Positions 11,951 to 16,397 of a DNA stretch of 32,670 bases are shown one piece after another. Position 1 is the stretch's first letter. The number at the start of each line of letters is the position of its first letter. A model generated the notes under the pieces. It saw only the letters and a program-made list of their open reading frames with translations. It did not search any database and was not told where the DNA came from. Source of the DNA: Gemmatimonadota bacterium (GTDB taxonomy: Bacteria > Gemmatimonadota > Gemmatimonadetes > Longimicrobiales > Gaopeijiaceae); the NCBI GenBank assembly GCA_028874995.1, contig JAPPGM010000164.1:13998-46667 (forward strand). The letters run 5' to 3'. Made by a program: the position numbers and the translations under genes.

Positions 11951-12607
11951 ATGGACGCAGGAACCACAGTCGTGCTTGCCGATCCGCACGCCATGGTGCG
12001 CGAAGGACTCAGGCTCGCGCTGGAGGCCACCGGGCGAATGACGGTCGTGGGCGAGACGGGTTGTACCGAGGAAGCGGTGCGGATCTCCAGCCGTGCGAAG
12101 CCCGATGTTCTGGCGATCGGCTTCCAGGGGCGGCGCGGGAGGACTCTGTGGGCGATCCGGAAGCTGAGAGCCGGGGACCCGGGAACGAATGTGCTCGTCC
12201 TCACGGATTCCGAACGGAACGAGTCACTGGACGGGATCATCGAGTCGGGCGCCAGGGGATGCATCGGCAAGGACCGGACGGCCGGCGATCTGGTGATCGC
12301 GGTCGACCTGGTCGCCGCCGGACGGATGCGTTTGCCGCGGCAGGCCTCGCGGCTGGTCCGGCGGAGGGTCGTGACCAACGGATCCGGGGCGGAAGCGCGG
12401 TTGGCCAGGTTGAGCGAGAAGGAACGCAGGATCGTGGTGCTGACCGCCCGCGGATTCACCTCGAAGGAGATCGGGCGCCGAGTCTTCATGACCGCCAAGT
12501 CCGTGGACAACGCCAGGGGTCGGGTGCGGAGGAAGCTGGAGCTCAAGACACGGGCCGAGCTCATCGCGTTTGCCGACAAGGCCGGGCTGCTGGAGGGAGA
12601 GGCATGA
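11951..12607 (+). CDS. LuxR-family regulator with degenerate receiver domain
   Basis: A 218-residue protein laid out like a NarL/FixJ response regulator: a receiver domain (about 5-125) and a LuxR-type helix-turn-helix (about 153-215, LSEKERRIVVLTARGFTSKEIG). The receiver keeps the switch threonine (T85 in VLVLTDSE) and the lysine (K107 in GCIGKD). The acidic pair is reduced to D11-P12, and the phosphoacceptor position, after P51-D52-V-L-A-I, is G57 instead of aspartate. It therefore should not be phosphorylated in the usual way and is probably an atypical receiver controlled by ligand, partner or abundance. GGGAGG lies about six bases before the ATG. No histidine kinase is nearby. It is divergent from the small secreted protein gene and upstream of the cysteine-rich peptide, either of which could be a target. 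Confidence 0.9.
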   Translation: MDAGTTVVLADPHAMVREGLRLALEATGRMTVVGETGCTEEAVRISSRAKPDVLAIGFQGRRGRTLWAIRKLRAGDPGTNVLVLTDSERNESLDGIIESGARGCIGKDRTAGDLVIAVDLVAAGRMRLPRQASRLVRRRVVTNGSGAEARLARLSEKERRIVVLTARGFTSKEIGRRVFMTAKSVDNARGRVRRKLELKTRAELIAFADKAGLLEGEA

Positions 12608-12814
12608 CGGGCTCGGCTGGATCCGGCACCTCCGAGCGCGTAGTGTGGGGGTTGAGGGAGTTTCCACACGTGAGACGCGAAGAAGTGGCATTTCACATCC
12701 GAATTGAGGTGATTTCGCCCTTCATGGGCCGGGTCGGGAATGCGATCGTGTACCACGCGGTCGGTGAACCGCGGGAAATCGGTCCCACGAACCTCAAGAA
12801 AAGGAGATGACAAG

Positions 12815-13159
12815 ATGAGACCGAATCGGAAGAGAAGCAGAGGGCTTTCGCCACTGGTGATCCGCTCACTGGGGGTGCTGGCGATCACGCTGATGGCGAT
12901 GACGACTGCGCCGGCGAGTGGTATTGGTGTCCCGGATTGCCCGGTGGACTGCAATCCGTGGGGCGACTGGACCTGTCACAATCCTCCGGAAGAGTGCGCA
13001 GAAAGCCATGGCATTAAGTGCGTTCCCGAAGGTGCCGTCCCCCCGGAATGCCTAGACAACTGTGAGTACGTTTCTCAGTGCAGGCACACAACGTGCGTCA
13101 CACGAGAGTCTGGGCCAGGCCTTCGCTCGGACTGCGTATTGTCAGGCGCGCGGTTGTAG
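12815..13159 (+). CDS. cysteine-rich small secreted protein (10 Cys)
   Basis: A 114-residue protein, not recognised as a known family. Residues 1-35 form a clear signal peptide: basic start MRPNRKRSRG, hydrophobic core SLGVLAITLMAM, and an A-P-A-S type cleavage region. The mature part of about 78 residues has ten cysteines at 42, 46, 54, 61, 69, 79, 83, 89, 94 and 107, a pattern expected for a disulfide-knotted extracellular peptide or a metal-binding one. AAGGAG lies eight bases before the ATG, a strong sign that it is translated. A propeller lipoprotein and a DsbA-like oxidoreductase follow on the same strand. In Bacteroidetes, small secreted cysteine-containing NVEAL peptides are encoded next to TolB-like propellers, so this may be an analogous arrangement; no NVEAL motif is present. 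Confidence 0.75.
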   Translation: MRPNRKRSRGLSPLVIRSLGVLAITLMAMTTAPASGIGVPDCPVDCNPWGDWTCHNPPEECAESHGIKCVPEGAVPPECLDNCEYVSQCRHTTCVTRESGPGLRSDCVLSGARL

Positions 13160-13180
13160 TCCGAGGCCGTGTACGACCGA

Positions 13181-14464
13181 ATGGAGTCTCGTGTGTTGCG
13201 TGTATCGCCACTCCGCGTCCAGTTCCTTCTGCCAGCATTGTTCCTGCTCGGAGCAGCGTGTGAACGGCCGACCTACACGGGACTACCCGGCGGTGTGCCT
13301 TTCCTGGAACAGGACAGCGCCGGGGTGCTCGTGGCCACGACGTTGGGCGCCAAAGCGAGATTCCCGATCGGATGGGTCGTGGATACAGTCCCGGAGTACC
13401 AGTTGGGAGCGGTGGAGGGGGAGGATCCGTATCTGTTTTCGAGAATCAGTGGTACACAGCAACTCTCGGACGGGCGGGTCCTTGTGGTGGACGCAGTGAG
13501 TTGTGAGCTACGGTTCTTCGGCCCGGACGCAGATTTCCTCGAGTTGGCCGGCGGGAAAGGCGAAGGGCCCGGAGAGTTCAATGCCGGAATAGCTGGAAGA
13601 TGCGACCTGATACCCTCGCCCGGCATCGATTCGTTGCGTGTTTTCGATGGCGCGAGGCTGAGCTTGCTGGACGACCGGGGTCGGTTCAGCCGTCGCTTTC
13701 CGGTCTCATGGCCTGGGCAATCGGTAACGCACGTGGCTGGCGTCGTCGGGGGAAGGGTGCTGGCACAAAGTCGATCTGTCGTTATGTCCCAAGGGGAAGG
13801 CCTGTCGAGTGAACCGTCCACCGCCGATTTCGCGCTGCTGGAACTCGCAACCTGGAGTGTCGTGTGGGAGGGCTTCTTTCCCGGTCAATACAGGTATACC
13901 GTCTGGGTGAACGACAGTCCGGTGGGACGAGTCGTATCGTCCGTTCCCTTCGACATTGTGCCCGACGCGGTGTTGGGCAGCGACGGCTTTTTTTTGACGC
14001 TGGGTGAAGAACACGGTCCAGAGATTCTGGAGTATGACATCATGGGTCGACTGCGCCGAGTCATACGCCTTGCAGAGCCGGTGTTGGTTCCCTCGCCTAG
14101 AGAGCTCGACAAGTACGTTGCGTTCCACGTTGATCGGTGGAGTATTGCGGACACCTCCCGCAACACGGTGTTTGACAATTTGAGACGCCGATACGGAAAG
14201 ATGCCACTGCCGAAGATCATGCCCGTCTTCGCGCGACTCCTTGTCGACGAAGCGGGCTGGCTGTGGGCGGAACTCTATCGGTTTGACGTCGGCCAGCCGG
14301 TGAGATGGCTCGTATTCGGGTCCAACGGCGAGGGTCTCGGAAGTGTCGACATGCCGCCGGATCTGGAAGTGTGGCAGATCGGCCATGACTTCGTCCTGGG
14401 GGTGTGGCGCGACGAGCACGGGGTGGAGTACGTGCGGCGCCACGCCCTCACCGGGCGGAGGTAA
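13181..14464 (+). CDS. six-bladed beta-propeller lipoprotein, copy 5
   Basis: A 427-residue propeller protein starting MESRVLRVSPLRVQF, with a hydrophobic core and a lipobox-like LLGAAC (cysteine 27). EQDSAGVLVATT and GKGEGPGEF follow. It is more distant from the array at 1393-6423: the early part reads TGLPGGVPFLEQDSAG, and the C-terminus ends YVRRHALTGRR instead of V-V-V-Y-E-L. A GTG at 13169 is an alternative start four codons upstream; the ATG is preferred because it gives a normal signal peptide. Base composition appears less GC-rich than in most of the window, hinting at a different origin. It sits 21 bases after the cysteine-rich peptide and before the DsbA-like gene, and a collapsed duplicate lies at 15217-15539. 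Confidence 0.85.
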   Translation: MESRVLRVSPLRVQFLLPALFLLGAACERPTYTGLPGGVPFLEQDSAGVLVATTLGAKARFPIGWVVDTVPEYQLGAVEGEDPYLFSRISGTQQLSDGRVLVVDAVSCELRFFGPDADFLELAGGKGEGPGEFNAGIAGRCDLIPSPGIDSLRVFDGARLSLLDDRGRFSRRFPVSWPGQSVTHVAGVVGGRVLAQSRSVVMSQGEGLSSEPSTADFALLELATWSVVWEGFFPGQYRYTVWVNDSPVGRVVSSVPFDIVPDAVLGSDGFFLTLGEEHGPEILEYDIMGRLRRVIRLAEPVLVPSPRELDKYVAFHVDRWSIADTSRNTVFDNLRRRYGKMPLPKIMPVFARLLVDEAGWLWAELYRFDVGQPVRWLVFGSNGEGLGSVDMPPDLEVWQIGHDFVLGVWRDEHGVEYVRRHALTGRR

Positions 14465-14528
14465 CGGAGGTTCACGGTGCAGGCTTACGGAGACTATTCA
14501 CAACCGGTCCCAACCGAAGGATGGAAAG

Positions 14529-15209
14529 ATGAGCAAACCCCGAACGATCATGGAAACAGCGGCCACGATGCTGGTGACGGCGGCTGCCTTAGTTGTGGCT
14601 TCAGTCTACGTCCACGGACAACTCGCGGGCGGATCGCCCTCACGAGGGGAAGTGGACGATAGTGAGATCGAGAACTGGCAGGAGGATACCGCACTGGGCA
14701 TTCGTGTCGGACCGGCCGACGCGCGCATGGTGGTCACGGAGTTCATGGACTTCACTTGCCCCTTCTGCGCGATGGTGGTCCCGGCCGTTGATTCGCTTCT
14801 CAGCCACTATCCCAACGATGTCGCACTGGTCTTTCAGCATTTTCCGCTGGACCGGCCCCTTTCCGGACCCAGCGCGATGGCGGTCGAATGTGCTGATCGT
14901 CAGGGCAAGTTTCAGCGAATGTATCGGGTGCTCTTTGCGCAACAGCAGTCACTCGGGAGCAAGGATTGGGCGGCCTTTGCGGAAGAGGCCGAGATCCCGG
15001 ATCTCATAGCGTTCGAAGAATGCGTGGCGCTACCCGCGGATGCTTTTCCGAGAATCGACGCCGGCCGTCAGCTTGGGAAGCGGCGGAATGTCACCGGGAC
15101 ACCCACCCTCTTCGTCAACGGTCGTAGGCTTGGTGCGCGTAGCTTCGCTGAGCTCCAGGAGGTGGCGGAAAAGTTGGGACTCGAGCCGCGAATGAGCCCT
15201 CCAGAGTAG
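14529..15209 (+). CDS. DsbA-family thioredoxin-like oxidoreductase, membrane-anchored
   Basis: A 226-residue protein. Residues about 8-30 form one hydrophobic segment (signal anchor or signal peptide). The thioredoxin-like domain has the redox motif CPFC at 77-80 in EFMDFTCPFC, an inserted helical region, and the cis-proline loop TGTPTLFVNG near the C-terminus. Proteins of this type (DsbA/DsbG/BdbD-like, Thioredoxin_4) catalyse or repair disulfide bonds outside the cytoplasm. GAAGGA lies about eight bases before the ATG. The position just after a ten-cysteine secreted peptide and a propeller lipoprotein makes those plausible substrates; this is inference. No DsbB or VKOR partner is seen in the window. 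The start at 14529 is supported by the binding site and the signal; longer open frame upstream overlaps the propeller gene. Confidence 0.9.
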   Translation: MSKPRTIMETAATMLVTAAALVVASVYVHGQLAGGSPSRGEVDDSEIENWQEDTALGIRVGPADARMVVTEFMDFTCPFCAMVVPAVDSLLSHYPNDVALVFQHFPLDRPLSGPSAMAVECADRQGKFQRMYRVLFAQQQSLGSKDWAAFAEEAEIPDLIAFEECVALPADAFPRIDAGRQLGKRRNVTGTPTLFVNGRRLGARSFAELQEVAEKLGLEPRMSPPE

Positions 15210-15216
15210 GAAGCGG

Positions 15217-15539
15217 TGTTTTTTCACGCTCCTGTGTTCGGTCTCCGATCCTCCTGGCCTTGTTCGTCATCGCCGCGGCATGTGAGCAGCCGCCTGAGAC
15301 CGGGTTGCCCGGTGGGGTCCCGTTCCTGGAACAAGACAGCGCCGGAGTACTGGTGGCCACGACGCTGGGTGCCCATGCTAGATCCCCGACCCGCCTGCCT
15401 GGAGAAGTTGGTCGAGTTAGAGCTCGATCCCTATGAAATGGCGGACACCACCCGGCGGCGGGTCAGTGAATCTCGCTTACGGCTCTATCGCCAGAAATAG
15501 GAGTAGGTCCGGCGCCACACCCTCACCGGGCGGAGGTAG
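15217..15539 (+). pseudogene. collapsed propeller lipoprotein gene (three retained segments)
   Basis: Three pieces of a copy-5-like gene survive. The first (about 15217-15395) reads S-P-I-L-L-A-L-F-V-I-A-A-A-C-E-Q and then TGLPGGVPFLEQDSAGV, matching the signal peptide and N-terminus of the gene at 13181. The second (about 15395-15500, another frame) reads LEKLVELELDPYEMADTTRR, which lines up with LDKYVAFHVDRWSIADTSRN of copy 5. The third (15507-15539) reads VRRHTLTGRR and a stop, nearly identical to the copy-5 end VRRHALTGRR. The propeller between the pieces is gone. The remaining frames are broken, so no functional protein is expected. The DsbA-like gene is thus bracketed by an intact and a dead copy of the same propeller gene. 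Confidence 0.85.
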
Positions 15540-15557: not shown

Positions 15558-16397
15558 CTACCGGCCTCTCCCCTTCCTCCGCTCCGGAGGCAAGTCCAAC
15601 GCCCCGCGAATATCCGAGTACCGGATTCGCGACCGGCGCGTGTCGGTCACCACCAGGTCACCATCCACATCGCGCACTGTGACACTCCCCGAACCCGCGC
15701 CAATCCGCACGGTGCCGCCCACCGACGTGACCTCGATGCTGCCCGATCCGTCCGAAACCGACACGTCGCCACCCACGGTTCGGATCCTGACCGACCCCGC
15801 GCCGTCCTTGATGGTGACGTTGCCCGCCACGTCCTCGATCCGGAGACTCCCCGAGCCGTCGTCGACCGTGACGCTGCCGGCCACATCCTCGATCCGGAGA
15901 CTGCCTGAACCGTCCTCGATGACCACCGCGGCCACGCCGCGAAGCTGCATGCTCCCGGACCCGTCATCGATTTCCACCTCGCCGACACCCGTGATCTCGA
16001 CGCTGCCCGAGCTGTCCTCCACGCGCAAGTTCATCCCGGCGGGCACCTTCACGACCAGGTCGATGCGCGCGTACCGGTTCCCGCCGAACCAACCGCCGCC
16101 CCCGTTGCGCGGGTAATCCGTGTCGAGCCTGCCGCCGTCGAGTGTCACGTCCAGGGCCGCCAGCCGGTCCTGGTCGGACGCGCACAGGGTGGCGGTGACA
16201 TGGACCTCGTCGGTCCTGGTGCTCCCCTCGATGACCAGCTTCCCGGCGCCGGCGTCCACCCGCAGGCTCTCGCCCGCCCTCGCGCCGAGTTCCATGTCTT
16301 CACGAAACTTGCAGTTGTTCTGGGCGGCCAGTGATGCGGGGGTCACAACTGCTGCGCCGAGGAGCGCTGCCGCCTTCCATGTCATTTGTCTCGTCAT
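15558..16397 (-). CDS. secreted DUF4097-like beta-repeat protein
   Basis: A 279-residue secreted protein. The ATG at 16397 has AAGGAAGG just upstream and opens a signal peptide (MTRQMTWKAAALLGAAVV, then SLAAQ). After a beta-rich N-terminal part come seven tandem repeats of about 18 residues built on the pattern G-S-G-S-L-R-I-E-D-V-A-G-S-V-T-V-D-D, two of them almost identical. Such regular short beta repeats are typical of DUF4097 proteins and should stack into a right-handed beta-helix or solenoid. The role is unknown; a surface scaffold or adhesin-like function is possible. The gene is single, with a divergent AbiEi-like gene upstream and the collapsed propeller relic converging from its 3-prime side. 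Confidence 0.85.
   Translation of the reverse strand: MTRQMTWKAAALLGAAVVTPASLAAQNNCKFREDMELGARAGESLRVDAGAGKLVIEGSTRTDEVHVTATLCASDQDRLAALDVTLDGGRLDTDYPRNGGGGWFGGNRYARIDLVVKVPAGMNLRVEDSSGSVEITGVGEVEIDDGSGSMQLRGVAAVVIEDGSGSLRIEDVAGSVTVDDGSGSLRIEDVAGNVTIKDGAGSVRIRTVGGDVSVSDGSGSIEVTSVGGTVRIGAGSGSVTVRDVDGDLVVTDTRRSRIRYSDIRGALDLPPERRKGRGR

Follow-up and report, generated by a model that had tools for sequence, protein, structure and literature searches.

A putative cassette of a ten-cysteine exported peptide, a propeller lipoprotein and a DsbA-like oxidase in Gemmatimonadota

The locus described here lies in a window of 32,670 nucleotides (the whole stretch of DNA that was analysed) on contig JAPPGM010000164.1 of a Gemmatimonadota genome, where three plus-strand genes, termed here PEP, PROP and DSBA, stand in tandem between a LuxR-type gene and a convergent minus-strand gene. 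From its open reading frame (ORF) and alignment, PEP (12815..13159; ATG at 12815, stop at 13159) encodes a 114-amino-acid precursor of an exported ten-cysteine peptide, preceded by a Shine-Dalgarno site, AGGAG, at 12802..12806 that is invariant in eight aligned loci. PROP (13169..14464, starting from GTG 13169 or GTG 13193) is assigned by structure model and profile to the six-bladed NHL-like propeller lipoproteins, and DSBA (14529..15209) by Pfam matches and motifs to the membrane-anchored DsbA-like thiol oxidases, with the motif CPFC. A first-pass annotation had described just such an arrangement, namely a small exported ten-cysteine protein with an excellent ribosome binding site followed on the same strand by a propeller lipoprotein and a CPFC oxidoreductase, and that description is confirmed. 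The evidence throughout is sequence-based, and the named records that carry PEP are metagenome-assembled genomes, whose bin names hint at a possible marine sponge origin.

The predicted PEP leader of about 38 amino acids is charged with a hydrophobic core, and the mature part of about 76 amino acids holds all ten cysteines. Across nine sequences these cysteines are invariant while the loops are highly variable, mean identity being 66% in the leader and 37% in the mature part, and the ratio of nonsynonymous to synonymous divergence (dN/dS) of the mature part is 0.2-0.3 in close pairs. Because nine conserved copies have the ten cysteines and the Shine-Dalgarno site in common, and dN/dS stays below 1 in the close pairs, PEP is taken to be more than a chance ORF; judged by these features it is coding and under constraint. 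As the first-pass annotation had noted, the peptide family is unrecognised: Pfam, NCBIfam (best match 0.56) and PADLOC assign it to none, and the weak NCBIfam match, to a radical-SAM target family, was dismissed as an effect of composition. None of the nine PEP members matched the NVEAL model of Pfam (PF14055), and PEP was not found in viral contigs or plasmids. Assignment to the knottins was rejected, the ten cysteines having a spacing other than the C..C..CC..C..C order.

PROP was modelled as a six-bladed propeller with a predicted local distance difference test score (pLDDT) of 89, its nearest structures being NHL-repeat domains and exported Bacteroides propellers, and it has one cysteine at a lipobox-like site (LGAAC). 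Two further cysteines, C104 and C137 (numbered from 13193), occur in 9/9 PROP orthologues and in 0/31 paralogues, and because of this private pair DSBA may act on PROP as well. PROP itself matches no Pfam family at E 1, DUF5128 included; its paralogues do match DUF5128 (PF17170; 28 of 40 aligned members), which indicates distant kinship only. DSBA matches the Pfam families Thioredoxin_4 (2e-21) and DSBA (8e-16), and its best solved relatives include actinobacterial-type DsbA proteins (PDB 4pwo and 4pwp, 6e-10). The CxxC motif is present in 68/68 members and the cis-proline in 67/67, and a second cysteine pair (C121 and C165 in the DSBA of the window) is invariant in all of them. By fold family, CxxC and cis-proline, DSBA is a DsbA-like thiol oxidase with putative activity on the peptide. 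No known immunity family was recognised in PEP, PROP or DSBA with Pfam, NCBIfam or PADLOC.

The distribution of the three genes was surveyed in 395 Gemmatimonadota genomes, 23 of which belong to the genus of the window. PEP was convincing only in that genus, where a profile search found nine copies in eight genomes. DSBA orthologues (E <= 1e-42) occurred in seven genomes, every one of them PEP-positive, and PROP orthologues (E <= 1e-60) in nine, these being the eight PEP genomes and one other, G053. PROP follows every PEP copy, although in G098 the contig ends between the two and PROP and DSBA open another contig, and DSBA is present in all PEP loci but one. G152 carries a duplication, in the order PEP-PROP-PEP-PROP-DSBA. 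The gene order is kept at several chromosomal sites, and on an RpoB tree the carriers form two clusters within the genus, some losses having occurred. The earlier suggestion that peptide, propeller and folding enzyme form a unit is supported by this pattern; PEP homologues lying mostly apart from propeller and DsbA genes, the outcome it had named as contrary, were not what was found, and other cysteine-rich peptides extend the association across the phylum. That PROP binds or displays the peptide, as was also proposed, is a role that we infer.

The wider association is apparent in the genome of the window itself, where the nearest DSBA paralogue (38% identity) forms a single reading frame with a propeller-like part (propeller profile 1e-37; no Pfam match). 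This fusion (contig C175, minus strand; L156:268-2145) has upstream of it on the same strand a gene (L139:1014-1244) for an exported peptide of 76 amino acids that starts MRKLWNLVM, has a strong Shine-Dalgarno site and contains six cysteines spaced C-6-C-5-CC-3-C-11-C, the knottin order C..C..CC..C..C; the peptide of locus L243 has the same order. A second DsbA-propeller fusion with a peptide ahead of it was found at L266. With the DSBA half of the C175 fusion as query, a search at E <= 1e-26 returned 72 places in 41 of the 395 genomes, spanning, by kinship labels, at least five families of the phylum. Sixty loci that cover the hits outside the PEP family, picked by DSBA similarity alone and blind to their neighbours, were scanned for exported ORFs of 40-170 amino acids that had four or more mature cysteines and were preceded by a Shine-Dalgarno site; simple custom rules served as filters for signal peptides and Shine-Dalgarno sites.

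Such an ORF lay within 2.5 kb on the same strand in 33/60 loci and on the opposite strand in three. Peptide density reached 0.34 per kb over the first kilobase upstream and 0.17 over the second; it did not exceed about 0.04 in the rest of the loci and was 0.004 in control DNA. Thirty housekeeping-type DsbA loci, a type that adjoins a VKOR-like gene in the genome of the window, served as controls: a peptide was found within 1.5 kb in 30/60 DSBA loci and 0/30 controls (p = 2e-7), and a propeller ORF in 35/60 and 0/30, respectively, with a propeller profile that was trained on the window's own genome and may miss the propellers of others. The mature cysteine count was even in 32 of 33 distinct peptides (p = 8e-9), as expected if all cysteines are paired. 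The identical peptides of L247 and L249 (genomes G173 and G309) were entered once in this test; their propeller neighbourhoods are near-identical as well, which may reflect recent transfer or bin contamination. Single-linkage clustering ran the peptides together, probably because their leaders are alike, and was discarded as a guide to the number of families. At G152 L238:1446-3572, three related exported peptides of the CC..CC type (70-81 amino acids) precede a propeller gene and a DSBA gene. Low-scoring family matches were seen for the L248 peptide (Toxin_3 and gamma-thionin, about 0.006) and for the C175 peptide (a defensin-like family at 8e-5, below the family cut-off).

The propeller is not the sole partner in these loci. 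A peptide was found with no detected propeller at L224, L225, L229, L257, L264, L273, L276, L277 and L279, and in another family of the order (L223, L225, L229, L257 and L264) the genes for an exported peptide, for DSBA and for a small PDZ-like protein lie close together in that order, again with no propeller detected; in L223 and L225 a large outer-membrane barrel protein, bearing a carboxypeptidase-regulatory domain, comes after them. Conversely, the window's own genome has about 100 or more propeller genes, many in tandem (C55, C147, C30, C78 and the window), and within its fetched stretches an exported ORF with at least six mature cysteines lay directly upstream of 1/97 propeller genes and 0/250 other genes; at four or more cysteines the figure rose to 2/97, the second being doubtful. 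A general link between propellers and peptides was rejected on the 1/97 count, and the peptide association runs through DSBA, not through propellers generally. Further exported cysteine-rich ORFs were noted at L085:3253-3462 (minus strand, same genome) and at L144:510-755 in G098, where the ORF overlaps the 5' end of a propeller gene.

Comparison of DNA with the same chromosomal site in G017 and G098 delimits a divergence island at 12923..15512, which is bordered by well-conserved DNA and reads as an exchanged cassette. Identity in the flanks is 82-94% (75% for the minus-strand neighbour in G017), and in G098 high identity resumes from 15,513. Synonymous divergence (dS) is mostly 0.13-0.46 in the flank genes against about 0.7-1.8 inside the island, where PROP and DSBA are 69-74% identical with dS of 0.7-1.0 and the DNA of the mature peptide cannot be aligned past the end of the signal peptide. 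Compared with G017, identity falls from 95% in the PEP leader to 34% in the mature part. Among seven sequences, few and related as they are, the distance of the mature peptide tracks that of PROP (r 0.83) and the distance of the leader does so much less (r 0.24). Since the mature part follows PROP far more closely than the leader does, the data suggest that PEP and PROP have been swapped as a matched pair.

Taken together, these observations make it probable that PEP, PROP and DSBA work together as one cassette that produces a secreted, disulfide-rich peptide, the locus being one case of a phylum-wide class that pairs this DsbA subfamily with many kinds of small exported cysteine-rich peptide. 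PEP is predicted to be exported by Sec with its leader cleaved off, after which the membrane-anchored DSBA would oxidise its ten cysteines in the periplasm to five disulfides, as the co-occurrence, the intact CxxC and cis-proline and the even cysteine counts imply. PROP might hold, display or shield the folded peptide at the envelope. The mature peptide and its matching propeller would be swapped between lineages as an allelic cassette, the leader and the role of the enzyme staying constant. Such exchange would suit a peptide with a role in recognition, which most likely antagonises competing cells or signals to them; a eukaryotic host is a less likely target. A broader proposal can be put forward tentatively, and falls somewhat short of being probable: that across the phylum a dedicated DsbA subfamily matures a large and fast-changing repertoire of disulfide-rich peptides, carried by lipoproteins of the propeller type or else by PDZ proteins and outer-membrane barrels, and that this repertoire diversifies in the manner of venoms or defensins, peptide and carrier alleles being exchanged together.

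Several results weigh against the interpretation as a functional cassette. In G017, PEP and PROP stand without DSBA, which was lost through fusion of PROP with a downstream PROP remnant; G053 has just PROP at the site that holds all three genes in G309; and at a second locus of G152 (C59) a truncated regulator is fused ahead of PROP and DSBA, and PEP is gone. Because these genomes keep subsets, no part of the cassette is strictly needed for the persistence of another. No peptide was found in 27/60 of the wider DSBA loci, by a scan that is conservative, given that L223 and L230 scored negative yet hold small exported cysteine-bearing ORFs by eye. PROP distance also tracks that of DSBA (r 0.67, five sequences), no dN/dS above 1 was seen for PEP, and the PEP model built from nine sequences reached a pLDDT of 49 with no usable fold.

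Other explanations have to be weighed against the same evidence. In one, the peptide acts as a diffusible signal that cells of the producer's own kind detect, and the neighbouring LuxR-type regulator belongs to the circuit; a response regulator does lie directly upstream in four loci (one of them truncated), but it is absent beside the other PEP loci with upstream sequence and its paralogues elsewhere sit in other contexts, which leaves the idea a small though real chance. It is unlikely that the peptides bind copper or another thiophilic metal in the periplasm, or sense redox state, with DSBA acting as a copper-tolerance enzyme of the ScsC kind. Short cysteine-rich proteins are often metal binders and copper-resistance ScsC-like proteins are among the weaker PDB relatives of DSBA, but the cysteine counts are nearly always even, their spacings differ widely between peptides with no common metal motif, the PEP cysteines stay fixed while the loops vary, and no metal genes were noticed in the called neighbourhoods.

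The private cysteine pair of the PROP orthologues also fits a reading in which DSBA serves mainly the C104-C137 bond and PEP is a bystander or chaperone. The many DSBA loci that have a peptide and no detected propeller make the peptide the more general partner, however, and this reading is quite unlikely. A chance neighbourhood or an assembly artefact of metagenome bins would be conceivable given the origin of the named PEP records, but the same genes recur in independent records, including a single contig of 4.5 Mb (G017, PEP and PROP), and the enrichment over matched controls is strong, so that it is very improbable.

The first-pass annotation had likened the locus to the NVEAL-propeller pairs of Bacteroidetes, and the likeness stands for the layout but not for the family. 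NVEAL peptides (PF14055) adjoin TolB-like or DUF5128 propellers in Bacteroidetes, and here too a small exported peptide adjoins a six-bladed propeller lipoprotein. The peptide here falls outside the NVEAL model, as do 40 assorted peptides, a DsbA oxidase is added and the cysteine scaffolds are of many kinds. Another parallel comes from secreted peptides that need an oxidoreductase for activity or gain activity from one, as with pediocin PA-1, whose bacteriocin system includes the oxidoreductase accessory protein PedC (PMC4919988), and EntV, which needs DsbA (PMC6606811). The present locus differs in having up to five predicted disulfides, a Sec-type leader and a phylum of Gram-negative type. 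Peptides of the pediocin and EntV type are Gram-positive products with one or few disulfides and no known propeller. The DSBA-linked peptides resemble actifensin, a cysteine-stabilised bacterial defensin-like peptide (PMC6989792), and laterosporulin in being short, cysteine-stabilised and strain-variable, although PEP itself matches no defensin-like family and the actifensin paper (PMC6989792) names ABC transporter genes but neither a Dsb nor a propeller gene. The actinobacterial-type DsbA proteins (4pwo, 4pwp) and related membrane-tethered thiol oxidases are sequence relatives of DSBA. They are general folding factors without a known tie to any single peptide. A literature search that covered subscription papers and preprints thinly found no description of a DsbA-peptide-propeller locus, nor did searches for NVEAL and DUF5128, for propellers with Gemmatimonadota, or for cysteine-rich peptides with DsbA and a propeller, return a match.

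If the interpretation as a cassette holds, the DsbA subfamily would provide a simple genomic handle on disulfide-rich bacterial peptides that family libraries miss, which matters in Gemmatimonadota, a phylum with very few cultured members. It raises the testable question of what the peptides recognise, and of whether the propeller is carrier, receptor or immunity protein. Dedicated oxidases handling up to five disulfides could also be of practical use in producing such peptides.

Around the three genes, the LuxR-type response regulator (11951..12607, plus strand; family match and synteny) is an optional neighbour directly upstream: it stands next to the locus at the syntenic sites in G017 and G098 and, in truncated form, also in G152 C59, and was rejected as a fixed part of the cassette, being absent beside the remaining PEP loci with upstream sequence. 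A short ORF between it and PEP was set aside, as G098 does not keep it. Downstream, 15236..15539 (plus strand), within the interval of the first-pass annotation, holds no gene of its own but what is left of a second PROP copy after internal deletions, with start, middle and end pieces joined and the frame broken; the convergent minus-strand gene called at 15558-16385 follows. Elsewhere, at L074:3471-3776, an exported cysteine-rich ORF (MKRRTKYILFALLINLAMLLQ...CC..CC) unlinked to PEP lies near transposase-like genes.
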